Origin: Thermodesulfovibrionales bacterium
GTDB taxonomy: Bacteria > Nitrospirota > Thermodesulfovibrionia > Thermodesulfovibrionales > SM23-35
Length of the DNA stretch: 39,274 nt
Assembly: GCA_031082155.1 (NCBI GenBank)
Contig: JAVHLL010000014.1
Location: 12,865-52,138 of the forward strand
Direction: 5' to 3'
The position numbers were made by a program, and so were the translations under genes. A model generated the notes under the pieces. The model did not search any database. It saw only the letters and a list, made by a program, of their open reading frames with translations, and had not been told where the DNA came from. Shown here one piece after another: positions 17,126 through 31,969 of this stretch. Numbering within the stretch: the stretch's first letter is position 1; each line of letters begins with the position of its first letter.

Positions 17126-17215
17126 GGAGGGGTTGCCGAGCGGTTTAAGGCGACGGTCTTGAAAATCGTTGTAGGGGTGACCCTACCGTGAGTTCGAATC
17201 TCACCCCCTCCGCCA
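17126..17215 (+). tRNA. tRNA-Ser (anticodon UGA)
   Basis: A 90-nt class II tRNA with long variable arm. Acceptor stem GGAGGGG/CCCCTCC (17126-17132 with 17205-17211), anticodon loop CTTGAAA (UGA), variable arm GTAGGGGTGACCCTAC, T-loop GTTCGAATC, CCA encoded at 17213-17215. A TATAAT at 17052-17057 may be its -10 box. Confidence 0.96.
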
Positions 17216-17285
17216 ATTAACTCTTTGATTTTATTTGTTTCAGCATCCTTTTTATTCGTTCAATGCTCGTTCAATGGGAACAATC

Positions 17286-17804
17286 TTACCTCTGCGATTT
17301 ACAACCATTTTTATGAAAATCCCATTCTTGTATTAACTGTGGTGCTTTTGTTGCCAAATCATTAAATCCAGGTAAAACCTTCTTGCCAGCACAATAGGGA
17401 CAGCCTCGACCAATATTTCTCTTTGAAATAGCAGACTGCCATTCATGTCCACACCTACCTAACCACCAGACCTTTTTTATGGAACTAACGGTCACCATTG
17501 AAGGCAACAAATCAGCATTTTTTGATGGATGCCATTCTTGAGCCAATTTAGGATTTGTTGTTGCAAGGTCATTATAACCTGCAAGAACTCTCTTGTTCGC
17601 ACATATAGGACAACCAACGCCTCTCGTTCTGTGGTCAATACGATTTTTCCATATATGGTTTCTATGACATTGCCATGTAATGACCTTTGATGTGTGTGCG
17701 GAACAATTGTGAGGGGTGAGAATACCATTTTTGGTAGGGTAAAACTCATCGAGCAAATTACAATGATTATTCTCAATACACCAGTCGTGAAAAGATTGTC
17801 TCAT
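17286..17804 (-). CDS. Repeated zinc-ribbon (DUF4379-type) protein, possibly C-terminally truncated
   Basis: 172 residues built of about two and a half copies of a 60-70-residue unit: a tract such as 'NDLATTNPKLAQEWHPSKN', then 'WQCHRNHIWKNRIDHRTRGVGCPICANK' or 'WWLGRCGHEWQSAISKRNIGRGCPYCAGK'. Each unit has CxxxH/CxxH and CPxC pairs forming a treble-clef-like zinc site. The last unit stops abruptly after 'LIQEWDFHKNGCKSQR', in mid-repeat, so the 3' end is probably lost. Such proteins turn up in phages and islands, sometimes with nuclease domains; none is seen here. It lies 71 bases past the tRNA-Ser, is AT-rich and lacks operon partners. Function unknown. Confidence 0.7.
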   Translation of the reverse strand: MRQSFHDWCIENNHCNLLDEFYPTKNGILTPHNCSAHTSKVITWQCHRNHIWKNRIDHRTRGVGCPICANKRVLAGYNDLATTNPKLAQEWHPSKNADLLPSMVTVSSIKKVWWLGRCGHEWQSAISKRNIGRGCPYCAGKKVLPGFNDLATKAPQLIQEWDFHKNGCKSQR

Positions 17805-17992
17805 GGCAACTACATTCCAATGTTTAGCCCTAACATTTTAGCTATCTTCAGCATAGATTCTTAGTTATCTTTCAGCATCATTATTATTTCAAAATAAAAT
17901 CTTCTCGCAGGATACCATCTGTGAATATTGCAATCCTGATAATAAACCCACTTGTATTTATAAAACAGGAGAATTTTATGACCTTAAAAATC

Positions 17993-20320
17993 TCATTCAT
18001 TGGGAACAATATAATAATTTATAGCATTCACATTATTGAATTGTTTTTTGACACTGTATCCTATCTGCTTCAGAAAATTATGAAATTCATTTATATTTTC
18101 ATTCATTATTTCAATAAAGATGTCTGGGTGATAAGTCGCTATAATACCCCGGGCACCTTGAAGCACATCTATTTCCATTTTTTCAACATCAATTTTTATA
18201 AAGTCGATCTTATGCATAATAAACTCATCGAGAGGGATTACCTTTATAGCTCCTTCTGGATTAGATTCTAAGCAAGCTGCACCTATATTATTTGGATCAC
18301 GATCTTTTACAGTAAATCTGCCATGCTCTTTACCAACCCCTATGCCTAGCATAGAAATATCTGTCTTGATACAATTGTTAATTTCCAAATTTGTTTTTAG
18401 TAATTGTATTGCAATTGGGTTTGGTTCAATCAAAATAACCTTTTCCGGATCCATGAATTTTTCATAGTATACGGCATGATTTCCTACATGGGCTCCAACT
18501 TCGATAATGACAGACTTAGGTCGTACATTATCGGCTATAAATTCTAATTCCTGCGACTCAAAAAATTTCTCATAAGTAAGATACCAGCGCTGGATAAAAT
18601 CTGAAGGATTTGAAATGAAGAATCTGATTTCTTTTCCCTTATATGAAAAAGAGATAATTCTGCCACTAATGCTCTCTTTCGTAATATTGTTTATTCCGTC
18701 CTGATTGGAAGCCATGACAGGTTTTAATTCTTCAGAATTAAAGCTGATCAAGTGAATGCCGATATCCTCCATGACATTCCTTAATTCCTCACTGGCTTTA
18801 TTAGTTATCAAATAATTTAATCCCATCATACTTATTCCAGGAGTCATAACATTTGTTTTTCGCATATTTTTACTCTTCTCACTTATTTCATAAAATCTAT
18901 ATCCAAAAGTATTAAAAAAATCTGTCAGGTAATTTGCTTCCGTTGTGTCTGAAACAGCTATTATAAAATCAGGCTTGCATTTTTCTATCGTTTTTTTCAT
19001 TCCCTCAACAACTTCCAGTTCAAAACCGTTTACATCAATTTTAACAAGTGAAACTGTATCAATATTATTTGATTCGACAATAGTGTCAACTCTTAAGGAT
19101 TGTACCTTCCTATATAAAATAGGCTTCTTCTCTATATTAATTTTAATAGAACTGGCAAAAGGCAACAAATTTCCTTCATCAAATATATTTACCTTCACTT
19201 CACTATTATCATTGGCTGCAGCGATGGGGAGGATATTAATATTTGTCAACGAATTTAGTAAAATATTTTCTTTGATCCTCGAACAATTCGTATCCAAAGG
19301 CTCAATACATATAATCTTGCTCTGTTTATTCTGCATTGATGCCACAAGCCCGTAAATTCCGGTGTAAGAGCCGATATCTAATATATATTCAGCATTACCC
19401 GCAAGTTTTGCCCAAATGCTCATTGATACAGGTTCATACGAGCCTGCCCAAATGATACTGCTTACAGTCAAATCGTCATTATTAGTAAGCATCCGGAAGG
19501 AAGGACATTCATAACAATTAATCGTATAACAGCCATAATAGGGCAAATATCCGGACAACTGTAAATAGTTACCATAGTCGGCTATTTTATTCTGTCTAGC
19601 GAATCCTGCAAATTCAAGTGTTTTATTGTTTATTATTTGGATGAACTCCATAGTCATGTTTTCAATACCGTATTGACTTTTATATTCTGCAATTCTCGCT
19701 TCTACAGCTTCTCTCCATTGTCTTCCATCAGCAGACTTTGGTCCGGTGGAATGCAAACCTCTTCTATTAAGAAAGAAGGGATTACCGATCTTTAGACATT
19801 TAAAATTGCTCCAAACTCTCAAATAATAATCAAAATCCTCACCCGTGTTCATTGATTCATTGAAAGGATTTTCTGCTGCGACATCTGTTCTGATAAAATG
19901 ACCCATTTGAAGTGTGATATATGGATCAAATAAAAGAAGTTCTTTTATATTTGATAACGTGAGTATCTGTGGGATACGCAGAGATGCCTGATTAGAATTT
20001 GGCAAAAGTTCAACAATAGCCCCCCAAATTGCATCATATTGATTTACATATTGCTTGATTAAATCAAAAGCATTTACAAAAAGAAGATCATCAGCATCAA
20101 GAAAGAAAAGCCATTCAATATTAGCTGCTTTTGCACGCCTTACTGCTTCATTCCGTGCGGCGGACCTACCTATCGCACCTGAAGTATCATTAATAGCTAT
20201 TGCAGATATTTCACTGAAAGGACCTTGTGAATGCTGAATAGCTACCGAAACAGATTGACTGCTCTGTTGAAATAATCTCTCATGTCCAGGACCTACAGGC
20301 GTTATAACCGCACATTTCAT
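17993..20320 (-). CDS. Glycosyltransferase family 2 - FkbM - FkbM methyltransferase fusion
   Basis: 775-residue three-domain protein. Residues 1-240 are a GT-A glycosyltransferase with 'ITPVGPGH' at the start and the DADD metal motif at 75-78. Residues 300-510 are an FkbM methyltransferase (motif I ILDIGSYTG, 313-321; 'KIDVNGFELEVVEG', 427-440). Residues 560-775 are a second FkbM domain (motif I IIEVGAHVGNH, 605-615; 'KIDVEKMEIDVLQG', 709-722). Such proteins make or O-methylate surface glycans. The AT-rich composition and a following methyltransferase suggest a transferred glycan-modification pair. The ATG has a poor ribosome binding site. Sugar specificity unknown. Confidence 0.85.
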   Translation of the reverse strand: MKCAVITPVGPGHERLFQQSSQSVSVAIQHSQGPFSEISAIAINDTSGAIGRSAARNEAVRRAKAANIEWLFFLDADDLLFVNAFDLIKQYVNQYDAIWGAIVELLPNSNQASLRIPQILTLSNIKELLLFDPYITLQMGHFIRTDVAAENPFNESMNTGEDFDYYLRVWSNFKCLKIGNPFFLNRRGLHSTGPKSADGRQWREAVEARIAEYKSQYGIENMTMEFIQIINNKTLEFAGFARQNKIADYGNYLQLSGYLPYYGCYTINCYECPSFRMLTNNDDLTVSSIIWAGSYEPVSMSIWAKLAGNAEYILDIGSYTGIYGLVASMQNKQSKIICIEPLDTNCSRIKENILLNSLTNINILPIAAANDNSEVKVNIFDEGNLLPFASSIKINIEKKPILYRKVQSLRVDTIVESNNIDTVSLVKIDVNGFELEVVEGMKKTIEKCKPDFIIAVSDTTEANYLTDFFNTFGYRFYEISEKSKNMRKTNVMTPGISMMGLNYLITNKASEELRNVMEDIGIHLISFNSEELKPVMASNQDGINNITKESISGRIISFSYKGKEIRFFISNPSDFIQRWYLTYEKFFESQELEFIADNVRPKSVIIEVGAHVGNHAVYYEKFMDPEKVILIEPNPIAIQLLKTNLEINNCIKTDISMLGIGVGKEHGRFTVKDRDPNNIGAACLESNPEGAIKVIPLDEFIMHKIDFIKIDVEKMEIDVLQGARGIIATYHPDIFIEIMNENINEFHNFLKQIGYSVKKQFNNVNAINYYIVPNE

Positions 20321-20359
20321 CTTATTTTACTCATAAACTTGTGCTTTGATATTTTCATT

Positions 20360-20956
20360 TTAAATGCAAATTATAAATGAAAGATTTGTATTCTTATCTT
20401 TGAAATATGGTGAGTCTGCATATCTTTTATATGGCAACTTGTATTCATTAATAATATGAAATCCATACCTCTGAAGCAAATTCATATAATCGTCAATATT
20501 CCTGTTAAAAACCGGAGGATTACCTGGTCTGCGCCATTCTCTTCCTAAGATTTCTCCAACAATCAAATGCTTCTTGCATGCTTTACGCAATCGAGTCAAT
20601 ATGCTTCCTAATGTATCATCATCAAGATGCAGAAAAACTGTATAAGCTATTACTATATCAGCATTATCGTATTCGCTATCCACTTCAATCTCTTTGAAAA
20701 AGTATTCAGGATAACGTTTTCGAGCTTCTTGTATTGCTTGGAGATTCAAATCTATCCCTATATATTTATTTGGTTGAAATGTTTTACAAAGACGTCCATA
20801 TCCACAACCAAAATCCAAGATAGTTTCAAAATGTATATTTTTCAATAATTCTTTTAGAACGTCGATAGGATTCCAACCCTCTGGATTTTCCGTATCATTT
20901 CCAGCAACAATATTCTGTAAATTGTCATTTGTCCAGTATTTTTTATAATCTATCAT
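20360..20956 (-). CDS. Class I SAM-dependent methyltransferase, small
   Basis: 198 residues with motif I 'ILDFGCGYGRLCKTF' near residue 44, 'YIGIDLNLQAI' as the acidic strand, and 'ADIVIAYTVFLHLDDDTLGSILTRLRKACKKHL' as the later core. Matches Methyltransf_11/25-type enzymes. ATG 20956 has GAGG eight bases upstream. It lies 39 bases before the glycosyltransferase-FkbM gene on the same strand, so they are probably co-transcribed. Substrate unknown. Confidence 0.82.
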   Translation of the reverse strand: MIDYKKYWTNDNLQNIVAGNDTENPEGWNPIDVLKELLKNIHFETILDFGCGYGRLCKTFQPNKYIGIDLNLQAIQEARKRYPEYFFKEIEVDSEYDNADIVIAYTVFLHLDDDTLGSILTRLRKACKKHLIVGEILGREWRRPGNPPVFNRNIDDYMNLLQRYGFHIINEYKLPYKRYADSPYFKDKNTNLSFIICI

Positions 20957-21021
20957 CTGTTAATCCTCTGCAAAAATATTTTTATACGTCTATTTACTAA
21001 ATAATAGTATCATCTCCTAAT

Positions 21022-21041
21022 CAATGGCCACTCGGAGTGGC
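21022..21041. repeat. Perfect short palindrome
   Basis: Ten-base arms ATGGCCACTC and GAGTGGCCAT abut with at most one base between, in the AT-rich gap downstream of the small Cys-rich gene. Neither strand has a U-run after it. It may be a protein-binding site or a repeat remnant. Confidence 0.4.
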
Positions 21042-21157
21042 CATAAAAATTCTGCAAGGGTATTAAATAAACAGAGAGCAACTCTTTTGAGAATAATTCT
21101 TCCATCCGAACTATTGGCAACATAGAATAGGTTGTTAATGCAATATTCCGGAAATCA

Positions 21158-21352
21158 TTAGAAAAAAGGAGGAACAAGCATAGGATCCTCTTGTAAACAT
21201 TCTTTAAAACACTCTGCATGGCAGTACCATATCTGCCATTTTCCTTTCGATGTTTCTACTGTCAGCCGACACGGCTCAATCTCGGTCTGGGAGATTGACT
21301 TTCCGCAGCAGCAACAAGGATCTCGTTCCATTTTTGCCTCTTCGCCACACAT
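21158..21352 (-). CDS. Small Cys-rich (treble-clef-like) protein, unknown function
   Basis: 64 residues from ATG 21352, chosen because AAGGAG lies six bases upstream; the longer frame from 21391 has no such site. The sequence carries 'DPCCCCGKSI' and 'WQIWYCHAECFKECL', so CxxC plus C/H-xx-C spacing like a LIM or treble-clef zinc site. No signal peptide. I do not recognise a family. It stands alone, upstream of the divergent manganese riboswitch. Confidence 0.6.
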   Translation of the reverse strand: MCGEEAKMERDPCCCCGKSISQTEIEPCRLTVETSKGKWQIWYCHAECFKECLQEDPMLVPPFF

Positions 21353-21488
21353 AATTTTCTCCTTATCAAATTCCATTTGTAATATGCACAATCATATCAT
21401 TGTTTGATCCCGTTTGTTACAGGATGACCTTCCCACGAAAAAGTGGACACGTGGTTAAGTTTCATTTCTGTACCGCTTAGAATCCATA

Positions 21489-21518
21489 TTGACTTCCTGT
21501 TTAGTGGTTGGATATTAT
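21489..21518 (+). promoter_or_regulatory. Promoter of the Mn riboswitch transcript
   Basis: TTGACT (21489-21494), 18-base spacer, TATTAT (21513-21518). Transcription would begin at about 21525, right at the 5' strand of the riboswitch P1 helix. Confidence 0.6.
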
Positions 21519-21524
21519 TATATT

Positions 21525-21626
21525 TAGTAAAGGGGAGTAGCTGAATCAGTGGCTATCACCAACACGGCTGTAAAGCCTGGTACCACTGGTTAGATAAACC
21601 TAACAAGCAAGACCTTTACCACGATA
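21525..21626 (+). ncRNA. yybP-ykoY manganese riboswitch
   Basis: The conserved AAAGGGGAGTAGCTG start, the internal CAACACGGC, and the GCCTGG...GCAAGACCTTT end are the hallmarks of the yybP-ykoY (Mn2+) aptamer. P1 forms between GTAAAGG (21527-21533) and CCTTTAC (21613-21619). The 3' strand of P1 is also the 5' arm of the terminator just downstream. Mn2+ binding should stabilise P1 and allow read-through, an ON switch for Mn export. Genes downstream (a UPF0016 stub and a TerC-family gene) belong to the families usually under this switch. Confidence 0.93.
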
Positions 21627-21658
21627 AAGGCAGTGTTTCGTGGTGAAGGTCTTTTTTT
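21610..21658 (+). terminator. Riboswitch-controlled intrinsic terminator
   Basis: Fifteen-base arms AGACCTTTACCACGA (21610-21624) and TCGTGGTGAAGGTCT (21638-21652) pair throughout, with one G-U pair, and are followed by a run of T to 21658. The 5' arm overlaps riboswitch P1, making the two structures exclusive. Confidence 0.9.
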
Positions 21659-21728
21659 AGGGTAGCAAGGCTTGAGTCTATGAGAAGGGGAATGGAAAAG
21701 AAGTTCAGGAGTATTCTTTGAAAATCTC

Positions 21729-21866
21729 ATGATTCAAGATCTTCTCATACCTTCTGTATCTATAGGGCTGGCAGAGCTGGGTGACAAGACCCAGCTTGCT
21801 GTCCTATGCCTCGCTTCTAAAAAAAGAACTATACGCAACTTAAAGGAGAGCCTATGGAATGGATAA
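21729..21866 (+). pseudogene. Truncated UPF0016 (GDT1/MneA-type Mn exporter) 5' stub
   Basis: A 45-codon frame opens MIQDLLIPSVSIGLAELGDK and continues TQLAVLCLAS. It contains the UPF0016 signature E-x-G-D-K-T in a membrane helix. Homology ends after about residue 31, where the frame reads 'KKRTIRNLKESLWNG' and stops 13 bases inside terC. A full family member has about 190 residues with two such motifs, or about 90 with one, so this is a deletion remnant joined directly to the terC ribosome binding site (AAAGGAG). It could still be translated as a one-helix leader coupled to terC. Confidence 0.75.
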
Positions 21867-22591
21867 CAGATTCACAAATTTGGATTAGTCTCATAACCCT
21901 GACTGCTCTAGAAATCATTTTGGGGATAGACAATATTGTGGTGATTTCCCTCCTGACAAACAAATTACCTCATGAACAACAACCGAAAGCCCGTAAAATT
22001 GGCATAGGGTTAGCCCTTGTAACCAGAATATTATTCCTGATAAGTATTGCTTGGCTGGCAAGCTTAACAATACCTTTGTTTTCACTATTCAACATCAACT
22101 TTTCTGTCCGTGACCTTATTTTGATTGCTGGAGGTCTTTTTCTTCTCTATAAGGGAACTCATGAAATACATGGGATGTTTGAAAAAGAGGACACACATAT
22201 AAATGCAAAGGTAAAAGCTACGTTTGTAGCTGTTATCACGCAAATCATCCTATTTGATATTGTCTTTTCCATTGATTCAGTTATTACAGCAATCGGCATG
22301 GCGCAGAAACTCGGAGTCATGATAGCAGCGATAGTTATTGCCATGATACTTATGCTAGTGGCTTCAACTGCAATCAGTAACTTTATTCACCGTCATCCTT
22401 CACTGAAAATGCTTGCATTGAGTTTTCTGCTCATGATAGGGGTTACTTTAACAGCAGAGGGGATGGAATTCCATATACCAAAAGCATATATCTATTTTGC
22501 AATGGGATTTTCGGGATTTGTTGAAACATTGAACATCATTTCAGGAACCAGAAGACAAAAGGGACAAAAGGCTTTAGATGTTTCACAGTAA
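21854..22591 (+). CDS. TerC-family membrane protein, probable Mn2+ exporter
   Basis: 245-residue integral membrane protein with about seven helices. Acidic membrane motifs 'LEIILGIDNIVVISLLTNKLP' and 'ILFDIVFSIDSVITAIGMA' are typical of the TerC/YkoY/YgjT group, whose members efflux Mn2+ or metalate exported proteins. ATG 21854 follows AAAGGAG by seven bases. Control by an upstream yybP-ykoY riboswitch strongly supports Mn2+ export. It overlaps the upstream UPF0016 stub by 13 bases in another frame. Confidence 0.9.
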   Translation: MEWITDSQIWISLITLTALEIILGIDNIVVISLLTNKLPHEQQPKARKIGIGLALVTRILFLISIAWLASLTIPLFSLFNINFSVRDLILIAGGLFLLYKGTHEIHGMFEKEDTHINAKVKATFVAVITQIILFDIVFSIDSVITAIGMAQKLGVMIAAIVIAMILMLVASTAISNFIHRHPSLKMLALSFLLMIGVTLTAEGMEFHIPKAYIYFAMGFSGFVETLNIISGTRRQKGQKALDVSQ

Positions 22592-22616
22592 TATCAGTAT
22601 TACAAAGAGTAGAAAC

Positions 22617-23378
22617 ATGGCTAAAACAGTGAAACTGGGTATTCTTTTTGTATACGTTATTTTGTTGTTTGCTTCATGCAAGGAAGTACCCGTAACAGAG
22701 CGAAAGCAATTAATTCTTATCCCTGAATCGGGTGAAATGAAGTTAGGAGAAGATGCGTTCAGGAAAATCATCAAAGAATCAAAGCTCAGTAATAATCGGG
22801 ATATCGTGGATAAAGTAAAAAAGGTGGGTAGCCGTATTGCAAAAGCTTCCAACCGTACTCACTATAAATGGGAATTCATAGTAATAGAAGATGACAGCAC
22901 TGCAAATGCCTTCTGCCTTCCTGGGGGTAAGATAGGCATTTACACAGGCATTCTTCCTTATACTAAGGATGAAAAGGGGTTAGCTGCAGTAATCGGGCAC
23001 GAGGTAGGACATGCAATTGCTCGGCATGGTGCAGAGCGAATGAGTACAGCCTTGCTTGCACAGGCAGGACAGATAGCCCTGAATTTGATTGTGGATGTTG
23101 ATGACCCTATGGTGTTGGATGCATTAAATCGAGCTTACGGATTAGGAACTGAAATCGGTGTAATTTTACCTTTTAGCAGGAAGCAGGAACTCGAAGCTGA
23201 TCGTATAGGTGTTAGTCTGATGGATAAGGCAGAATACAATGCTATTGGAGCCCTGGAATTCTGGAAGAGGATGAAACAGGGAAGGCAGGGGAAACAACCG
23301 TTGGTATATTTGTCCACTCATCCGGTGGATGACAAAAGAATTGCAGAGATTGAAAAACTCTTGCAAATTAAGAAATGA
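22617..23378 (+). CDS. M48-family zinc metalloprotease lipoprotein
   Basis: 253 residues from ATG 22617, preceded by AAGAG. The earlier in-frame ATG (22578) lies within terC's end and lacks a site. A lipobox 'LLFASC' gives lipidated Cys21. The zinc motif HEVGH is at 128-132, with the third ligand in 'KQELEADRIGV'. Closest in layout to E. coli LoiP/YcaL and Oma1-like proteases: no membrane helices after the signal and no TPR domain as in BepA. Likely a periplasmic quality-control protease. It is 25 bases after terC on the same strand, so probably in the Mn-regulated transcript. Confidence 0.88.
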   Translation: MAKTVKLGILFVYVILLFASCKEVPVTERKQLILIPESGEMKLGEDAFRKIIKESKLSNNRDIVDKVKKVGSRIAKASNRTHYKWEFIVIEDDSTANAFCLPGGKIGIYTGILPYTKDEKGLAAVIGHEVGHAIARHGAERMSTALLAQAGQIALNLIVDVDDPMVLDALNRAYGLGTEIGVILPFSRKQELEADRIGVSLMDKAEYNAIGALEFWKRMKQGRQGKQPLVYLSTHPVDDKRIAEIEKLLQIKK

Positions 23379-23430
23379 GGTATTTCAGAAAATTGCAGTA
23401 TGCTACTTCTTCTAGATCTTTTTCAATTCT

Positions 23431-23664
23431 CTAATAATTAATTTTGTGTGAGCCTTTTAATTTCTCTTGCTTGCCTTTTACGGATATAAGACAGGTAGGC
23501 GTAGAATTGATCCCGTCTTCTTTTATAAAGCTGTTTAAAATCTTGAATTCCGATGTGACATCGAATGGTCCATACTGAACGCCCTTATTTTCCAAAAACA
23601 CTTCTATTTTATGTTTATATGAGAGATCCCTGCAAATAGCTGCATGAATCCTTACAGATACCAT
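23431..23664 (-). CDS. Glutaredoxin-like small protein, degenerate active site
   Basis: 77 residues resembling a glutaredoxin fold: 'KHKIEVFLENKGVQYGPFDVT' fits the 'FLexkGi.y..~dv' helix-strand region and 'GINSTPTCLISVKG' fits the cis-Pro loop and strand. The usual CxxC is absent; only one Cys ('AAICRDLSY') lies near the expected place. No strong ribosome binding site. It sits downstream of the cytochrome c assembly pair on the same strand. It may be a structural or non-catalytic member, or a decaying gene. Assignment is tentative. Confidence 0.5.
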   Translation of the reverse strand: MVSVRIHAAICRDLSYKHKIEVFLENKGVQYGPFDVTSEFKILNSFIKEDGINSTPTCLISVKGKQEKLKGSHKINY

Positions 23665-23774
23665 AGAGTATCGTAATTACAATCCCTATAAGGGGAAGTG
23701 CAATGTTAATCCATTGCTTCTTACCGACTAAAACTGTTTTCAGTTAAACATTATCGCCATATTTAATCCCTCAC

Positions 23775-24857
23775 TTAACCTGAACCATATGCATGAAGTC
23801 CTGAGAGGAGCAGGTTAACACCGAGATATGTGAACATTACAGCAACAAAGCCTACCACTGCCACGATTGCAATCTTTTTCCCTCTCCATCCCTTCAACAG
23901 TCTACCATGAAGATAAAAGGCATAGATGAACCATGTTATTAATGACCATGTTTCCTTAGGGTCCCAGCTCCAGTAAACACCCCATGCCTGATCAGCCCAT
24001 ATAGCCCCGAAAATAAGCCCACCTAATGTAAAAACGGGAAAACCTATTGCAATACTTTTATAGGTGATTTCATCTAACATTTCAACAGTTACGTTGAATT
24101 TCCTTACAATTGAGTTAAGAAGCAAGCCATACCTCCATATAAGGATTCCCGTAGTGAATGCCATAACCCAGCTTATGATTTTTATGGTAGTGGAAGGATT
24201 GAGGAAGGATGCTTTAAATAAGTAGCTCTGGATAAAGACATCGGGTTTTACTGCAACTTTGAAGGCAAGCAGGTCAATTCCCATAGCTACTAACACGACA
24301 AAAGAAATCCCGAAAGTTATAGTCCAGAAAAAGTAAGAACCTTCATTCCTTTTCTTAGATGTCAGAATGAGATACATAAGCCCTGTGCTACAAGACAAGG
24401 CAAAGGTTGCATATGCAAAAAAGCTCATTGTTACGTGGGCAAGGAGCCAGTTGCTTTTTAATGCAGGGACAAGTGGTTGTATTTCTTTCGATACACCTGT
24501 CAGGTCAATAAATGCCAACATGAGACTTGCAATCGGTGTTACAAAAGCTCCAAATGATCGATTTTTAAATTTAAACTCTATGATGAGATACCCTAATATC
24601 AGACACCATACAAAGAACACAAGCGATTCATAGAGGTTTGTCAGAGGGGCTGATTTCAGAATGCCCATCCCACTTAAATCAGCAAATTCCCCCCATCTCA
24701 AGAAGATTGCCGACGTCTGTGAGATAAACCCTGCAATCGTTATTGTCGTTGCAAGAATGCCAACTTCCTGTTTCCTGAATGCGAGATAGGTGATATACAG
24801 TATCATGGCAAAAATATATGCCATTGTTGATAATCCGAAAAATACAGCACTGTTCAT
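23775..24857 (-). CDS. ccsA: Cytochrome c biogenesis protein CcsA/ResC (heme handling)
   Basis: 360-residue membrane protein of system II cytochrome c assembly. The heme-binding tryptophan-rich motif WGVYWSWDPKETWS is at 292-305, and conserved His residues lie at 141, 317 and 355 within membrane-proximal segments. About eight or nine hydrophobic helices. The ATG directly follows the ResB stop with no gap. Many databases call this protein CcsB. Together with ResB it moves heme out and attaches it to CxxCH apoproteins. Confidence 0.93.
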   Translation of the reverse strand: MNSAVFFGLSTMAYIFAMILYITYLAFRKQEVGILATTITIAGFISQTSAIFLRWGEFADLSGMGILKSAPLTNLYESLVFFVWCLILGYLIIEFKFKNRSFGAFVTPIASLMLAFIDLTGVSKEIQPLVPALKSNWLLAHVTMSFFAYATFALSCSTGLMYLILTSKKRNEGSYFFWTITFGISFVVLVAMGIDLLAFKVAVKPDVFIQSYLFKASFLNPSTTIKIISWVMAFTTGILIWRYGLLLNSIVRKFNVTVEMLDEITYKSIAIGFPVFTLGGLIFGAIWADQAWGVYWSWDPKETWSLITWFIYAFYLHGRLLKGWRGKKIAIVAVVGFVAVMFTYLGVNLLLSGLHAYGSG

Positions 24858-26291
24858 CTATTTTCCTCCTTCCTGTTTTTTGCTGAGGAAAGAAATCATC
24901 TTGTCTATTTTCCTTTCAAACACGGATTTGTTCTTATTGGCTGTCGCCCCTACGATTACCCGTGTGTTGTTTTTTTCCTCAACTAAGGTAACCCATATTT
25001 TCCTGTGGCTTGTAAAGAATGCGATAAAAAGTCCAATAGCTATCAAAAAGAAACCTATATACACAACCCATCTGCCAGGGTCTTTCCTTACCTGTAGCCC
25101 TGTAAACTCAACACCCCAGTAATCATTGAATTCAACCCTCTGTCCTTCTGGAAGTATCCATGTTCCTGGATACCTTTTCAGTATCCATCCTGAAAATTTA
25201 TACTTGCCATCTTCTGAAAAATCAATAAGAACAGCTGGATTATTCATCTGGTTTGCATATGTTGAGGTATGTCCATGCTCATCCATCTTGAAAGCAGGGC
25301 TGAAGTTTATGATTTTCCCTGTAATACTGGTATTCGGTATTTGGAACGTGTCCCCATATCTTAAATTTAACACTGTCTTTTCACTTTGTGCCGAAGCTAC
25401 ATTGAACAGGAAGACTCCTCTTTCGAGACCATTCGGGATCATGCCGTAACTGGACTGATAGAATGTTATCCCATTGAATGTTAAAGGGTCATTTACGGTT
25501 ATGGATTTTTTGAGAACTTCCTTCCCATCCTTCAGAATGGTAAGCCAACTTCTATATTCTTGTGGCATATCAGAATTTCCGTAAAAGTCCACCTGAAAGG
25601 TTTCACAGCGTATATCAAACCCTAAAGGGAATTCCTGTTCTTCACTTTTGAAAACCATGCTCGATGTCTCACCTTCTGGCAGATTAAGATACCCTTTGAA
25701 ACCGAACCGTACTCCGATTATGGCTCCGACAAGGATTATGAGGATGCTGAGGTGAGTTATATACACCCCAAGACGTGAGTAACGCCCTTTTTGGGAATAG
25801 AATTGATACCCGTTATCTCCTACAGTTTCAGCACAGTTAAGGTGCATTAATTTCAGGAAACCTTTTATTTCATTTTTAAGCGTATCAGGCTTGCCCTTTA
25901 TGGTAATTTCCCTTTGAATGGAAAGTTTCCTTAATTGTTCGACATTCATTGGTTTCATGGGCTCCTTGATGAGTCGCCAAATTTTCGGCAATCTATCCAA
26001 GGAGCAAAGGACAAGATTGAGGGAGAATAACATCAGGAAGGCTGTGAACCACCATGAATGATACATATCTGTAAAGCCAAGTTTTTCTGACACGGCATAC
26101 AGATGAGGTGCAAGGGATTCCCCAAAGAGCTTTGACAGGATTTGAATATTGTCAGATGGTTCACCTTTCTGTTCTAAAACTGTTCCTACAATTGAGGTAA
26201 CCGATATAAGGACGAAAAGAACAATTGCAAACTTTATAGATACGCATAAATCCCATATTTTATCAACAATAGTTTTTTTTTCATGTTCCAT
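24858..26291 (-). CDS. resB: Cytochrome c biogenesis protein ResB/Ccs1
   Basis: 477 residues. Three N-terminal membrane helices ('FAIVLFVLISVTSIVGTVLEQKG', 'WWFTAFLMLFSLNLVLCSLDRLP', 'LGVYITHLSILIILVGAIIGVRFG') precede a large periplasmic beta domain with 'NGITFYQSSYG'. A last helix ('VVYIGFFLIAIGLFIAFFTSHRKIWV') precedes a basic tail. This is the Ccs1/ResB pattern. ATG 26291 has AAGGA eight bases upstream. First gene of a resB-ccsA pair. Confidence 0.94.
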   Translation of the reverse strand: MEHEKKTIVDKIWDLCVSIKFAIVLFVLISVTSIVGTVLEQKGEPSDNIQILSKLFGESLAPHLYAVSEKLGFTDMYHSWWFTAFLMLFSLNLVLCSLDRLPKIWRLIKEPMKPMNVEQLRKLSIQREITIKGKPDTLKNEIKGFLKLMHLNCAETVGDNGYQFYSQKGRYSRLGVYITHLSILIILVGAIIGVRFGFKGYLNLPEGETSSMVFKSEEQEFPLGFDIRCETFQVDFYGNSDMPQEYRSWLTILKDGKEVLKKSITVNDPLTFNGITFYQSSYGMIPNGLERGVFLFNVASAQSEKTVLNLRYGDTFQIPNTSITGKIINFSPAFKMDEHGHTSTYANQMNNPAVLIDFSEDGKYKFSGWILKRYPGTWILPEGQRVEFNDYWGVEFTGLQVRKDPGRWVVYIGFFLIAIGLFIAFFTSHRKIWVTLVEEKNNTRVIVGATANKNKSVFERKIDKMISFLSKKQEGGK

Positions 26292-26402
26292 TTCAGTATT
26301 CCTTGAATATGATTTTTTATTATCTTTTCAATAGAGTCCCGTTGCTAAAAGGACACCAAGTGGCGATCACACCAAATGAAAAGCTCGTACTTATATGGAG
26401 GA

Positions 26403-26690
26403 TTAACTTTCGGGAGGCTTCGAAATTATTGAGAAATATTCCGAATAAACTATAAATTGTGGCGATGGTTGTAAAGATATTACTGAAAAATACAGTGTTA
26501 CAATCTGTAAAACAGATAGATTCACTGCATTAAGACAAACCGGACAAAGATGCAGACTGGCAAAGTCACCGTTTTGGAGAAATGGCAAGCAGTCATTGCA
26601 GGATATATTATCAATAAAAGGAACGACAATAATAGTCAATAATAAGAATAAAGTAATAGAAGAAAATTTTGTTATTTTCTGAAATATCAT
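26403..26690 (-). CDS. Small membrane or secreted protein with two CxxC motifs
   Basis: 95 residues with an N-terminal hydrophobic helix, then 'CNDCLPF' and 'LCPVCLNAV' pairs, and a second hydrophobic stretch. AT-rich, without a good ribosome binding site. I do not know a family. The paired CxxC suggests metal or disulfide chemistry, and a metal-transporter remnant lies just upstream, but the link is only positional. Confidence 0.4.
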   Translation of the reverse strand: MIFQKITKFSSITLFLLLTIIVVPFIDNISCNDCLPFLQNGDFASLHLCPVCLNAVNLSVLQIVTLYFSVISLQPSPQFIVYSEYFSIISKPPES

Positions 26691-26739
26691 AATATATTAT
26701 CAATAATATTTAATAATTAAATCAAGCCTTAAAAACCTT

Positions 26740-26892
26740 TCAATGGCCATGGCTTTCCTGCATCCTGCAAATCTCATCATCAGATTCAATTTCTACCGTG
26801 CTATGCGCAAGGTCAAACTGTTTGATTAGGGAGAAGAAGAAGTCCGCAGTTCTGGAAAAATATATCACAAGTGCGGAAGGAGTCAATGAGAA
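26740..26892 (-). pseudogene. 3' remnant of a CDF-type metal transporter
   Basis: Fifty codons between two in-frame stops translate as '...SALVIYFSRTADFFFSL' and 'IKQFDLAHSTVEIESDDEIC', ending in HGH. The 'FxLxHSTVEIE....C' pattern matches the cytoplasmic C-terminal domain of cation diffusion facilitators ('gI.HvTiQiE'). No membrane domain is present and there is no start codon with a site, so only the 3' end survives. It begins right after the PilZ stop. Confidence 0.5.
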
Positions 26893-27219
26893 TCACTGCG
26901 ATGAATTATTAAAGTCGCCAAGCTTGATATCTTCAATCAATTGTTTAATCTCTCTCTTCTGCTCATAATTTAAATCTATAAACTCGATACCCATTCCAAT
27001 TCCCGGTTGTGAATTATTAACTTCTGCCTTTAACGTCAAAATAGAAGGGATTGTTACATGAATCACACTTCCTTTTTTAGGTGGAGATAAGGTACTGACA
27101 AACATGCCTGTTTCACAAATATTCTGACTATACGCTTGCTTTCTCCCATCTATCAAGATATCCTCCCTGAAGGGATATCGTTCATATTCTCTTTGTTCTT
27201 TTTGCTCCTGGTTATCCAT
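26893..27219 (-). CDS. PilZ-domain c-di-GMP receptor
   Basis: 108 residues, essentially one PilZ domain. The c-di-GMP-binding RxxxR is in 'REYERYPFRED' near the start, and the second motif reads 'NICETGMFV' where D/N-x-S-x-x-G is usual, so Ser is replaced by Cys. 'GIGMGIEFIDL' closes the barrel, then a C-terminal helix. A PAS-GGDEF cyclase lies 173 bases upstream on the same strand, making the two a natural source and reader pair. Confidence 0.85.
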   Translation of the reverse strand: MDNQEQKEQREYERYPFREDILIDGRKQAYSQNICETGMFVSTLSPPKKGSVIHVTIPSILTLKAEVNNSQPGIGMGIEFIDLNYEQKREIKQLIEDIKLGDFNNSSQ

Positions 27220-27392
27220 TGCTCTTATTGATTCCGGTCAGAAATATAAACTATTTTAGCAAATTGCGTTTTTCCTGACTACAGAAAGGAAGAGTGTATT
27301 ACTCTAAGCTTTGAAAATGCATAGTTCGTTTTTGGGGAAAAACCTTGCGTGAGCTCCTTTGTCAATAAAAAATCAAAGAAGACTATTGAGTA

Positions 27393-28649
27393 TTAAGATT
27401 GCTTTTTATTCTTTTTGTATTTATACATTAATTCATCTGCCTGGGTTAATAACTCCTCAATAGTACAGGGATTTTCCGGATCATAGTATGTAACACCAAT
27501 ACTTAATGAAAGTCTGTAATCATGCGTTCTTTTAGAGTTATAAATTTCAAGGCTTTTCTCCAAACGATCAACGATTTTCTCTATATTGTCACCAGTAGTT
27601 CCCACTGGTATGACAACAAACTCATCACCACCGATACGAGCAATAATATCGGATTCCCTGTAATTGGTTCTAAGGATATTTACGGTCTCAATTAATGCTG
27701 CATCACCCTCTCTATGTCCAAAAGTATCATTTATCTCTTTCATATTATCTATATCAGCATACAGCATAAATATTCCCTTTTTCTGTCGTTTGGCTTGCTT
27801 TAACATAGGATCAACTAAGGTAAATAAACCCCTTCTATTGTAAATACAGGTAAGTTGATCAGTTAAAGACAATTCCCGAAGTTGTTCCTGCATCCTTTTG
27901 TAATCTGTAATCTCTTTGGAAATAACTGTAATCGCTGTTATTGTTCCCTCTACTCTTTGTGCCGGGCTTAATGTGAGAAGGAAATATCTGCCATCCCGAA
28001 GGCTTTGATATTCATGGTGGACGGATTCTCCTCGATTGAATACTACCTCTGCTTTTTCAATAAACGCTTTTGTTTCTTCAGGTGAATGAAATTCATTATA
28101 CAATCGTCCGATATATCCCTCATCTGATAAACCCAACCTTGCGAGATGTTTCTTGTTAATGAAAAGATATCTATAATTTCTATTTACTACACATATTGAA
28201 TCATCAGTTGACTCCACTAATGAACGATATTGTTCTTCACTTTTTTTCAATGCTTCGTCAGCTTTTTTTCGTTCCATAATTTCTTTTTCTAAATCCGAGG
28301 TCCTGTTGGCAAGACTTTTAGCATATCCATTTATATGTTTATCCTTTTCATTGATATCGCGAATAGTCAATTGCGAAAGTCTTATGACTACGTAAACAAA
28401 ACAAGCACCTCCAAGAAAAATAGTGCCTGTAATTATTTCCAAAGCGAAAGCTATGTCCAGGATAAGAACCATGGCAGTGAAAACATATCCAAAGAAAAAG
28501 AAAAACATAAGAGATAAAGTAACTGTCCATTTCGCTCTTAGTTTTTTTGAAACATTTTTCTTAATCTTGAGACCTGCTGCTATAGAGAACAGCATTATTG
28601 CAGCTCCGATTAAGATTTGGATGGCCGTGATAGATTCTATAAAGCTCAT
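27393..28649 (-). CDS. Membrane PAS-GGDEF diguanylate cyclase
   Basis: 418 residues: three membrane helices in the first 95, a short coiled coil ('NRTSDLEKEIMERKKADEAL'), a PAS domain (about 135-255: 'EQYRSLVESTDDSICVVNRNYRYLFINK'), and a C-terminal GGDEF domain. The active site is an intact RIGGDEF, and RESD five residues before GGDEF is the product-binding inhibitory I-site (RxxD). It should make c-di-GMP and be feedback-inhibited. No EAL domain. Confidence 0.92.
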   Translation of the reverse strand: MSFIESITAIQILIGAAIMLFSIAAGLKIKKNVSKKLRAKWTVTLSLMFFFFFGYVFTAMVLILDIAFALEIITGTIFLGGACFVYVVIRLSQLTIRDINEKDKHINGYAKSLANRTSDLEKEIMERKKADEALKKSEEQYRSLVESTDDSICVVNRNYRYLFINKKHLARLGLSDEGYIGRLYNEFHSPEETKAFIEKAEVVFNRGESVHHEYQSLRDGRYFLLTLSPAQRVEGTITAITVISKEITDYKRMQEQLRELSLTDQLTCIYNRRGLFTLVDPMLKQAKRQKKGIFMLYADIDNMKEINDTFGHREGDAALIETVNILRTNYRESDIIARIGGDEFVVIPVGTTGDNIEKIVDRLEKSLEIYNSKRTHDYRLSLSIGVTYYDPENPCTIEELLTQADELMYKYKKNKKQS

Positions 28650-28832
28650 GTTTTGAAATATACCCCCGTATCTATAAATATTATTCCATCATTTGCAATA
28701 GTTCAATGGACATTTCTTAGATAAAGCAGTGCAAGTGCTTTCATTACGATTGAAAATCAACGCTATCTGAGGATTTTTCAAAGTTGTTTTATTCAAGAAG
28801 TTATCGAAAAAAGGATAACAGATTGCAGGACT

Positions 28833-30137
28833 TCAGTTTCCTGAGCCTTTCGCCCCCGTTGAGAGGGCCTTCAGATCAGTGAATATATCTTTTATGCTCT
28901 GATACCTGTCATCTCTTACCTTCCTGATACACCGTATCACGATTTCGTCAAGCCAATCAGGCATGTCCTCCACAATATCAATAACCCTCGCTGCACCAAG
29001 ACCCTCCAGGCTGCCGGTTAGCATCTCATAGAGAATAACACCCGCTGAATAGATGTCAGCCCTTTCATCTAACGCAACTCCCTTTGCTGTTTCAGGAGGA
29101 GAATAAACCAGAGGTTGTTTCCTTTTCAGAAAAGAGACATTGTTCCGTGCATCTATGACGATATTGTCAGGGCTTAAAAGACCGAAAGCCCAGCCATTTT
29201 TGTAGGCTTCCTGCAGACTTTTCAGCACCTGGACCCAAAGCTTGAGGCTGTATCTTGACTCAATCCTTCCATTCTGCATGAAGCTTTTCAACGATATTTT
29301 CCCTTCAGGAATCTCTTCTGGGGGCATAAGGGTCTCAATTCTCTGTTGAACATCTTTGAAGGCAGAATTAACCTGCTCTATCTCTTGCAAAACCTTAACC
29401 GCTTTCTCCACATTTCCTGTATTCTCAAGCACTAAGGCAAACGTATAAAAGTCGTCAAGCGTTGAGCTCTCAGGTTTTTTATCGTAAAGGTAAATCTGAA
29501 ACATATCCGCAGCCTCTCTCAGCATGCCTTCTGATTTGAGAAGCATTGCTGCCTTTTTGTATTCTCCAGCCTCTCTGTATGCTTTCACAGCATAAATCGT
29601 TTTTCCTGACTGCAGCATAATTTTTGCCACATCAATTTTTTTCCCTGCCTTGTCATAGAGGGCCGCTGCTTCGTCAAATTCACCTTCCAGCAGGGCGACT
29701 TCTGCAGCGTCTTCAAGACTCCCTGCTTTTACATACATTTCCTTTGCCTTGCTGCTCATTCCCAGAACATCATATAACACGGCAGCCTGATTGTAGTCTT
29801 TCCCCTTTTCGTAGAACAATGCAGCTTTATGGTAATCTTTCAGCTTTTTCTCATAGATTCTGGCAGCTGATACATAACTTCCTCCCTTCTCAAAAACGTC
29901 AGCTTCTTTCTGATAATCCTCAATGACAGTAGTTTTCAGTTTTTTCCCTATGGTATGTCTGTACATAAATCTGACAAGAAAGAATAAAATAACAAGAACG
30001 GGAATAAGAATAAGAAGAAAGAGAGCAAGGAGACCTTTCGATGCTTTTTCTTCAACTGAACCTTCTAAGGTAACCCCCTGGACAAATGGAGTGTTTAAGT
30101 GTGCTATCAGAAGATTAACAACATTGATTTGAATCAA
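28833..30137 (-). CDS. Membrane TPR protein with C-terminal protein pseudokinase domain
   Basis: 434 residues. One membrane helix near 32-55 ('LLALFLLILIPVLVILFFLVRFMY'), then about six TPR-like units (75-265: 'YVSAARIYEKKLKDYHKAALFYEKGKDYNQAAVLYDV', 'AYREAGEYKKAAMLLKSEG'). The last 150 residues match a Ser/Thr kinase C-lobe: 'LSPDNIVID', 'YSPPETAKGVALDERADIYSAGVILYEMLTG' and 'IRCIRKVRDDRYQS'. The HRD motif is replaced by 'GLL', DFG is not found and most of the N-lobe with the ATP Lys is missing. It should therefore not phosphorylate. A scaffold or sensor role is inferred. Confidence 0.75.
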   Translation of the reverse strand: MIQINVVNLLIAHLNTPFVQGVTLEGSVEEKASKGLLALFLLILIPVLVILFFLVRFMYRHTIGKKLKTTVIEDYQKEADVFEKGGSYVSAARIYEKKLKDYHKAALFYEKGKDYNQAAVLYDVLGMSSKAKEMYVKAGSLEDAAEVALLEGEFDEAAALYDKAGKKIDVAKIMLQSGKTIYAVKAYREAGEYKKAAMLLKSEGMLREAADMFQIYLYDKKPESSTLDDFYTFALVLENTGNVEKAVKVLQEIEQVNSAFKDVQQRIETLMPPEEIPEGKISLKSFMQNGRIESRYSLKLWVQVLKSLQEAYKNGWAFGLLSPDNIVIDARNNVSFLKRKQPLVYSPPETAKGVALDERADIYSAGVILYEMLTGSLEGLGAARVIDIVEDMPDWLDEIVIRCIRKVRDDRYQSIKDIFTDLKALSTGAKGSGN

Positions 30138-30547
30138 AAGAATACCCCTGAATTTTTATCCTGTGCAGTATTGCATCATTGCCGGACATCAAAATCTGTC
30201 AATAGCGGTCGTGACTTTTAACAATAATTTTTCACAGGTGATCCTTAAAGTAATAAGGTCTCCATTTCCTTTTGAAATATTCATTATTATATCAAACATT
30301 GATTCCGATGACTTCAGAAAGGAGCAAACTGAGGCCAGAAATCTCTCGCTGCGTTGATTCCTATGTGAACTGTGGTGTTCCACGGAGAGTCCTTGGCACG
30401 TTTACCCCAGGAAGCAACTGACGGTGCTCGAAATCTTTCCATAACGTTTACTCCTCTATGTATTGTGCATCAATTAAAGGTGCTTTGTTCAGGCAGAATT
30501 CGCTCGTTGTTATGGACTTTAGGAAACCTGTGCTCTATGGAGGCAGA
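30138..30547. other. Region between cNMP-like gene and pseudokinase, mostly non-coding
   Basis: 410 bases with no recognised family. The only frame with a good ribosome binding site is the 42-codon one listed separately. Other open frames here on both strands have no site and no known domain. I see no tRNA or terminator. Confidence 0.4.
30314..30442 (-). CDS. Candidate 42-residue Trp-rich small protein
   Basis: ATG 30442 has a strong GAGGAG with an eight-base spacer, and 42 codons follow to a TGA. The product has three Trp, in 'SWGKRAKDSPWN' and 'ARDFWPQF', a basic start and no hydrophobic helix. It lies between the cNMP-like and pseudokinase genes on the same strand. The ribosome site is the only evidence for translation; composition is not diagnostic. 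Confidence 0.4.
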   Translation of the reverse strand: MERFRAPSVASWGKRAKDSPWNTTVHIGINAARDFWPQFAPF

Positions 30548-31003
30548 TCAGAAGAACGTTACAATGCGATCAAAGGATTTTCTTAAACGATCTGATACGG
30601 TAAGGAGCATTCCCTTCAGGAGTTTAGCCCCCAGTCCAGGATTTGTGGCGATCAGTTTATCCAGGTTTTCCTGAGTAATAATCGCGAGGGAAACATCTTC
30701 AAGTGCTATTGCGGTAACTTTCCTGAGACTGTCATCAAGAATGCATAATGCACCTCTGCTATACATGCCCATAATCACATTCATGTTCCCGAACTCCGCC
30801 TCTTTCTTTATTTCCACTTTGCCTGAAACAATAAATGCTATGTAATCGAAAGGGTCCTCTTCTTTCCACAGGGGCTCACCGGCCGGTACATTTTTGCTTT
30901 TAAAAAAAGCGGCCAGATGCTCGATATCTTCATCGCTCAGAAATTTGAATACGCTCTTTTCCCCTTTCATAGAAGTATAGAGTTCTTTAAATACACCATT
31001 CAT
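30548..31003 (-). CDS. Stand-alone cyclic-nucleotide-binding-like domain protein
   Basis: 151 residues, from ATG 31003 five bases beyond the upstream gene. The central 'VPAGEPLWKEEDPFDYIAFIVSGKVEI' is the cNMP-binding beta-barrel signature, and 'RGALCILDDSLRKVTAIALEDVSLAII' is where the phosphate-binding cassette lies. That cassette lacks the usual Gly-Glu and the nucleotide Arg is uncertain, so ligand binding is doubtful. There is no DNA-binding helix-turn-helix after it. It could be a regulatory subunit of the pseudokinase system downstream. Confidence 0.75.
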   Translation of the reverse strand: MNGVFKELYTSMKGEKSVFKFLSDEDIEHLAAFFKSKNVPAGEPLWKEEDPFDYIAFIVSGKVEIKKEAEFGNMNVIMGMYSRGALCILDDSLRKVTAIALEDVSLAIITQENLDKLIATNPGLGAKLLKGMLLTVSDRLRKSFDRIVTFF

Positions 31004-31007
31004 ATTC

Positions 31008-31391
31008 TTAAACCCACTCTCCTTCTTTCCATTTCTTTTTGTATTTTTCAAGCATGATAAAAGCAAGCCATAGTTTTTCCATACTATCAAAATTATCAAA
31101 ATATGATGCATTGTCACTCATTAAAACGTTACTGAATGCTATGGCTAAATCCCAGGGCGTTGCATATTTTTCGATTACCATCTCCTGTAGCTGGTCCTGT
31201 CTTGGAAGCCAGGCAGCTTTTATTGTCTTTAAGTAAGACACCTTCTTCTCAAGGTCACTTACAATGGTCTGGCATGGTGAAGTCAGACCTAATGACATCG
31301 AGACAAAAAAATCTCCAAACTCAGGTTTCCATTGCTTTTGTATCACTTTTGCACTTTCACACATTTTAATATAGTGAGATGCTTTATCCAT
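31008..31391 (-). CDS. Hypothetical protein, phage-like
   Basis: 127 residues, Trp- and Lys-rich, with 'IQKQWKPEFGDFFVS', 'AAWLPRQDQLQEM' and 'WLAFIMLEKYKKKW'. The WLPRQDQLQ block reminds me of small phage-encoded proteins of unknown role; I cannot name the family. No signal or membrane helix. ATG 31391 follows AGGAGG-type sequence (CCTCCTG on the plus strand at about 31396). It is four bases upstream of the cNMP-like gene, so co-translated with it. Confidence 0.6.
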   Translation of the reverse strand: MDKASHYIKMCESAKVIQKQWKPEFGDFFVSMSLGLTSPCQTIVSDLEKKVSYLKTIKAAWLPRQDQLQEMVIEKYATPWDLAIAFSNVLMSDNASYFDNFDSMEKLWLAFIMLEKYKKKWKEGEWV

Positions 31392-31486
31392 ACAACCTCC
31401 TGATTGTGAGATATTTTATGGAACGTTTATTCGTAGCCACTTTTCCTTTCGTCCCTGTCTTATTTCAGAGTCTTTCCATAAACTTA

Positions 31487-31590
31487 GGGTTCGTCATCCC
31501 CCGGCTTGAACTGGGGGATACAGAAGGCATTGGAAACACGGGATTCCCGCCTTCGTCTACGACTGGTAGAGCGAGAATGACAGATTTTTA
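31487..31590. repeat. REP/MITE-like palindromic element
   Basis: Begins TTCGTCATCCCCC, forms the hairpin ATCCCCCGGCTTGA-ACTGGGGGAT, then 'GGGATTCCCGCC', and ends GAGAATGACAGA. GTCAT and ATGAC form short inverted ends like the element at 7067-7153. It lies between a hypothetical gene and a lipoprotein gene, with no open frame of note. Confidence 0.6.
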
Positions 31591-31616
31591 TAAGAATCGT
31601 GCTTTATGGACAGACT

Positions 31617-31829
31617 CTATTTAGTAGATTCCTTCACTTTTTCTCCGGCTTCCTCAATTTTATCACCTGCTTTTTCAGTCGTCTCTTTAATATTTTCCCC
31701 GACTTTTTCTACAGTCTCGTCTATTTTCTTTCCTGCACGCTCGGCAGGACCTTCTTTTTTACAGGCGGTAAAAGAAACGATAATCATGCTGCTGAAAAAA
31801 ACCAACATAATCTTCTTTAAAATTGACAT
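31617..31829 (-). CDS. Small lipoprotein with amphipathic 11-mer-like repeats
   Basis: 70 residues. Signal peptide with lipobox 'SFTAC' (Cys23), then Lys/Glu repeats of the form 'ExxGxKIxExxEKxGxxIKE' predicted to be a long amphipathic helix, as in YtxH-, CsbD- or LEA-like stress proteins. ATG 31829 is preceded by AAGGAGG. Neighbours are an RNase and, beyond, other stress proteins. Probably envelope stress related. Confidence 0.8.
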   Translation of the reverse strand: MSILKKIMLVFFSSMIIVSFTACKKEGPAERAGKKIDETVEKVGENIKETTEKAGDKIEEAGEKVKESTK

Positions 31830-31969
31830 ACCTTACCTCCTTGGCGGCCATAGGCCGTATTACCGACATTTTTCTTATCAAATGGTACAGGCTACAGCGG
31901 CCTGTACTGCCCATGTGCAATTTATTATTTTAATCCTTCTCAAACTTTTTTTAGGTCTCTCAATCTTCC

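Follow-up and report, generated by a model that had tools for sequence, protein, structure and literature searches.

The window analysed here, a stretch of 39,274 nucleotides from a Thermodesulfovibrionales bacterium, carries between positions 21525 and 22591 an aptamer, a terminator, a reading frame of 45 codons and terC, in that order, followed by a gene for an M48-family peptidase. The 45-codon frame, hereafter the stub (21729-21866; translation MIQDLLIPSVSIGLAELGDKTQLAVLCLASKKRTIRNLKESLWNG), contains the motif E-L-G-D-K-T and ends 13 bases within terC (21854-22591). The individual features are as follows.

21528-21620, + strand: aptamer of a yybP-ykoY-type Mn2+ riboswitch (lineage covariance model and covariation; RF00080 sub-threshold)
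21609-21658, + strand: intrinsic terminator, as predicted by folding, with its 5' arm (21609-21624) within the closing helix of the aptamer, its 3' arm at 21638-21653 and a T-run
21695-21728, + strand: leader of the lost GDT1 gene (26 of 34 bases shared with the leader of the intact GDT1 gene in the related genome G104)
21729-21821, + strand: UPF0016/GDT1 codons 1-31, with the first E-x-G-D-K-T motif kept (30 of 31 residues and 89 of 93 bases shared with L119:3948-4040)
21822-21866, + strand: tail of the stub, probably out of frame, ending within terC (past a one-base gap it runs colinear with codons 31-38 of G104; homology ends at about 21839)
21840-21844, + strand: junction left by the deletion, where the 5' piece of GDT1 meets the region upstream of terC (homology to G104 ends at about 21839-21840; homology to the terC regions of G094 and G175 begins at 21844)
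21842-21848, + strand: Shine-Dalgarno sequence of terC, AAAGGAG, with good spacing (direct reading; purine-rich sites also precede terC in relatives)
21854-22591, + strand: terC, TerC family, 245 aa (PF03741, 167.6 bits; orthologues 86-87% identical in G094 and G175)
22578-23378, + strand: M48-family peptidase, the next gene of the operon (PF01435, 132.5 bits)

The aptamer (AAAGGGGAGTAGC...GCAAGACCTTTAC, 21529-21619 by direct reading) scores 9.8 bits with RF00080 against a gathering score of 45. Because Rfam at the gathering threshold missed it, a lineage model was built instead. The RF00080 threshold is strict and was exceeded in two of the five control genomes that gave a signal. All 20 sister riboswitch loci tested (L083-L110) also fall below the gathering score, the best at 22.6 bits, so the low scores stem from the Rfam model as applied to this lineage. 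A pattern of two cores recovered 33 copies in 28 of the 176 genomes of the order, while the reversed control pattern recovered none. From these, 30 distinct aptamers, the window's among them, were aligned to train the covariance model. Their common fold has 96% paired cells, and 16 of its 27 pairs show double-sided changes, a level reached by none of 500 shuffles. The cores GGGGAGUAGC and CAAGACC, which a long-range helix closes, are invariant in all 30 copies, which were selected by that very pattern; the helices, which covary, played no part in the selection. On the window, one of its own training rows, the lineage model gives 103.5 bits (E 3e-23). It also places a weak match (E 0.49) on an RF00080-certified site in Citrobacter (L042) and another weak one, with E 0.03, on a Klebsiella site (L041). 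The two conserved cores are the hallmark of the yybP-ykoY class. Thus, positions 21528-21620 are a diverged yybP-ykoY-type Mn aptamer, a lineage variant below the Rfam cut-off, and the Mn aptamer that the preliminary description placed before the stub and terC is present despite its low RF00080 score. Mn2+ is probably both the ligand and the ON signal for the operon, and the TerC, GDT1 and P-type ATPase genes found downstream of such aptamers are compatible with the predicted Mn2+ switching.

The terminator (21609-21653 with its T-run; fold z = -5.2) takes up the aptamer's own 3' strand. The switch helix and the terminator are consequently mutually exclusive, as in the transcriptional members of the class. 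The same overlap, with a AAAGGTCTTT-type 3' arm and a T-run, is kept in 27 of the 30 distinct sister riboswitches, in agreement with the exclusivity proposed earlier. When the Mn2+ riboswitch of L. lactis has no ligand bound, the 3' segment of its helix P1.1 becomes part of the terminator (PMC11087558). This published mechanism fits the layout in the window and therefore counts in favor of a riboswitch that acts by termination.

The gene that the switch would control encodes a protein that matches PF03741 over positions 2-177 of 178 (167.6 bits; cut-off 27.8). No other GDT1 and no MntP turned up in the window's genome, and this TerC is the only member of the TerC, GDT1 and MntP families there to score over its cut-off. 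An M48 gene also lies 3' of terC in G094, and a C-terminal M48 piece remains in G104.

By its alignments, the stub derives from the 5' end of a UPF0016/GDT1 gene, and its GDT1 sequence is limited to residues 1-31. The Pfam GDT1 profile gives 27.6 bits (cut-off 27) over 24 of 75 profile positions and a single motif. The DNA is 89% identical over 146 bp (21695 to 21839; E about 6e-51) to the GDT1 gene of G104, a genome of the same family as the window and of another genus (L119:3948-4493; 181 aa, two repeats, starting MIQDLLIPFVSIGLAELGDKTQLAVLCLASKTTKYLQ). Both results bear out a 45-codon remnant with the UPF0016 motif that ends 13 bases inside terC, as first described, for residues 1-31 and not for the last 14. 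Past codon 31, 22 bases can be aligned to G104 (30 of 2000 shuffles did as well), and because the alignment needs a one-base gap, the last 14 residues probably lie behind a frameshift and out of frame. An alternative in which the stub is joined to the C-terminus of GDT1, on the resemblance of KRTIR to KRTIS, scored 10 against 19 for the colinear reading with the gap and was rejected. Also rejected was a match of the segment between terminator and stub to the tail of the thioredoxin-like gene upstream in G104, which 312 of 1000 shuffles equalled. An exact 41-base stub probe had no match in viral contigs. Given where the homology to G104 ends and the homology upstream of terC begins, the junction is confined to about five bases that border the terC ribosome-binding site.

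Members of UPF0016/GDT1 carry one or two E-x-G-D-K/R-S/T repeats with three membrane spans each, a definition that the stub falls outside. It is presumably not a working member, and function has probably been lost. Comparison with G104 shows four base differences in codons 1-31, of which three are silent and the fourth gives F9S. A single amino-acid change against three silent ones, together with the retained first transmembrane segment and motif, would suit a small membrane protein selected for its E-x-G-D-K-T motif. However, a gene that stayed whole during most of this divergence would be expected to show the same pattern, and the tail is probably out of frame. Moreover, one-repeat UPF0016 proteins span the membrane three times (PMC7380456), and the stub does so at most once. 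Nor does any such frame stand before terC elsewhere: with the Pfam GDT1 profile, no other short frame conserved in that position was found across two overlapping genome sets, 176 from the order and 396 from the phylum. Together with a purpose-built profile run on 76 loci, mostly around terC, these scans yielded only a broken remnant in G033 and a frame of 67 aa in G397 (L181, C28). The latter carries the GDT1 N-terminus and lies on another contig than terC; it represents another truncated GDT1. The preliminary description had allowed that the frame is a real small protein if relatives conserve it as such. Such conservation was looked for in the order and phylum genomes, the species itself being represented by one genome, and was not found, and a selected small protein is regarded as very unlikely.

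A different role suggested earlier for the remnant is that of a translated leader kept to couple terC translation. Ribosomes starting at 21729 would end 10 bases past the terC start codon and aid initiation there. The overlap of the stub stop with the terC start by 13 bases and the retention of GDT1's own leader before the stub agree with this proposal, as does the partial pairing predicted around the terC start (mean unpaired about 0.44). This openness, however, falls inside the span of 0.30-0.64 seen in relatives, whether or not they have a leader frame. In addition, terC's own Shine-Dalgarno sequence is good, that of the stub is poorly spaced by direct reading, and the frame has probably shifted after codon 31. 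In two relatives, G154 and G146, terC follows the riboswitch directly and no leader frame intervenes; the frame is kept in no other genome searched, and GDT1 and terC do not overlap where both are intact. These observations do not support coupling, which is improbable. Since intact tandems lack the overlap, its 13 bases are most likely an incidental result of the deletion. Similarly doubtful is the broader idea that the truncated GDT1 front end has been co-opted, such that its translation, or a membrane peptide with a metal-binding motif, tunes the production or activity of TerC. No observation demands a function for the stub, and it probably has none.

Relatives provide further evidence that two Mn-exporter families once stood in tandem behind this switch and that one collapsed, as the preliminary description held. 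The intact order riboswitch-GDT1-terC, which it recommended seeking in relatives, occurs in G021 and G022. GDT1 also lies directly before terC in G152, where the riboswitch is further upstream, and in G032. The opposite order, terC-GDT1, is found in G153, and in G154 riboswitch copies lie on either side of terC (L010:1340-1433 and 2266-2360). G094 has a riboswitch, a zinc-ribbon gene, terC and M48, without GDT1. In G104, the intact GDT1 that matches the stub is followed by a scar (L119:4544-4849) in which the first half of a zinc-ribbon gene is joined to the last fifth of an M48 gene; terC was sought in this genome and not found, and no riboswitch was found near its GDT1. Read from these junction sequences, the scar marks a deletion of terC, and the window lineage and G104 have lost opposite partners, GDT1 and terC respectively, each leaving a scar. 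In G033 (L122), GDT1 before terC has collapsed through one deletion between its two internal E-x-G-D-K-T repeats and a second reaching near the 3' end. Both flanks match its congener G032 (L123), in which GDT1-terC is intact, and this collapse is independent of that in the window.

The comparison also modifies the earlier account. The tandem and the loss of one partner are upheld, and GDT1 and terC of the close relatives were probably separated by a TFIIB-type zinc-ribbon gene, in which case the deletion in the window probably took the zinc ribbon too. The ancestral order would be riboswitch-GDT1-zinc ribbon-terC-M48, pieced together from several genomes rather than seen whole in one. That the stub is an artefact of assembly or binning is scarcely credible. 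With the locus represented by one copy, in a draft genome of 56 contigs, there would be room for such an error, but riboswitch, terC and M48 lie on one contig in the arrangement of G094, the junction is clean and at a sensible place, and G033 offers a parallel case.

The history of the operon seems to have involved exchange between lineages. Divergence between the window genome and G104 was sampled from stretches of orthologues, which share about 70% DNA identity; even where the residue is conserved, about half of the third bases differ. Among 7665 stretches of 31 codons, none had four differences or fewer. The stub, with only four, is far below this sampled divergence, which points to the GDT1 segment having been exchanged horizontally in recent times. 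The M48 piece in G104 has 30 differences from the window in 158 bases, 20 of them at third bases. Because this piece has diverged while the GDT1 piece is nearly identical, the parts of the operon need not have one history, and they may have acquired different ones by horizontal exchange. Positions 17126-32000 of the window are low in GC (0.32-0.43, where the genome averages 0.46 and the flanks are close to 0.49) and lie beside a tRNA-Ser(TGA) gene (17126-17215). This stretch, from about 17.2 to 32 kb, may be an acquired island with the terC operon. Its position by the tRNA gene and the 87% TerC match between the window and G175, a member of another family, are consistent with mobility. The age and fixation of the stub rest on one assembly of the species, and selection is not readable from one genome with few changes since the deletion.

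Taken together, the stub is very probably a young GDT1 pseudogene remnant in an ordinary Mn2+-responsive, riboswitch-controlled terC-M48 operon. A transcription-termination riboswitch of the yybP-ykoY class would drive this operon in response to Mn2+. With Mn2+ bound, the closing helix would hold the strand that otherwise starts the terminator; termination would be prevented, transcription would read through, and TerC would be made. The operon would once have included a full gene for a GDT1 (UPF0016) Mn/H+ antiporter, most likely with the zinc-ribbon gene between the two exporters, the transport functions of GDT1 and TerC here being presumed. A deletion that began near GDT1 codon 38 and stopped just short of the terC ribosome-binding site would then have left behind the GDT1 leader and 31 in-frame codons.

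The locus is a fresh example, with a gene remnant, of a known type of regulon, and it is a well-documented case of an operon in decay, not a novel type of gene. It offers a snapshot of a redundant Mn-export operon falling apart, with GDT1 lost here and terC lost in G104, and a second genus shows the loss of GDT1 independently. The added value is that reciprocal and repeated partner loss can be read from the scars. In addition, the order possesses a broad Mn-riboswitch regulon, which goes undetected at the standard Rfam threshold. Among the first genes behind the riboswitch in the order (L083-L112), those for M48/HtpX-like peptidases are the commonest, and UPF0182, UPF0114, beta-type carbonic anhydrase, P-type cation ATPase, TFIIB zinc-ribbon and PGPGW membrane proteins are also represented. 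Among the papers searched, htpX and yybP-ykoY are named together in one paper on TerC (in two versions) and in no other.

Each part of the locus has a counterpart among known systems. Like the yybP-ykoY riboswitch (RF00080), and the transcriptional type of L. lactis in particular (PMC11087558), the window's riboswitch has the GGGGAGUAGC and GCAAGACC cores, a switch-helix 3' strand common with an intrinsic terminator and a position before Mn-efflux genes; it differs as a lineage variant whose Rfam score is under the cut-off. The 245-aa protein encoded by terC has the full-length domain of the TerC family (PF03741; MeeF/MeeY, Alx), but is below the cut-offs of both the YkoY and the YjbE subfamilies of NCBIfam (81.8 and 77.4 bits). 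Residues 1-31 of the stub are the start of a UPF0016/GDT1 protein (PF01169; PMC7380456), whereas the stub as a whole has one motif and at most one of six membrane spans. UPF0016 genes were under a yybP-ykoY riboswitch in 328 of 333 strains surveyed (PMC7380456). Manganese induces both mneA (UPF0016) and terC in Vibrio parahaemolyticus, and each has a predicted yybP-ykoY riboswitch in front of it (PMC13274385). The same two exporter families are thus under the same class of riboswitch as here. In V. parahaemolyticus, however, they are the separate genes VP0023 and VPA0856, and not a tandem in which one partner has decayed (PMC13274385).
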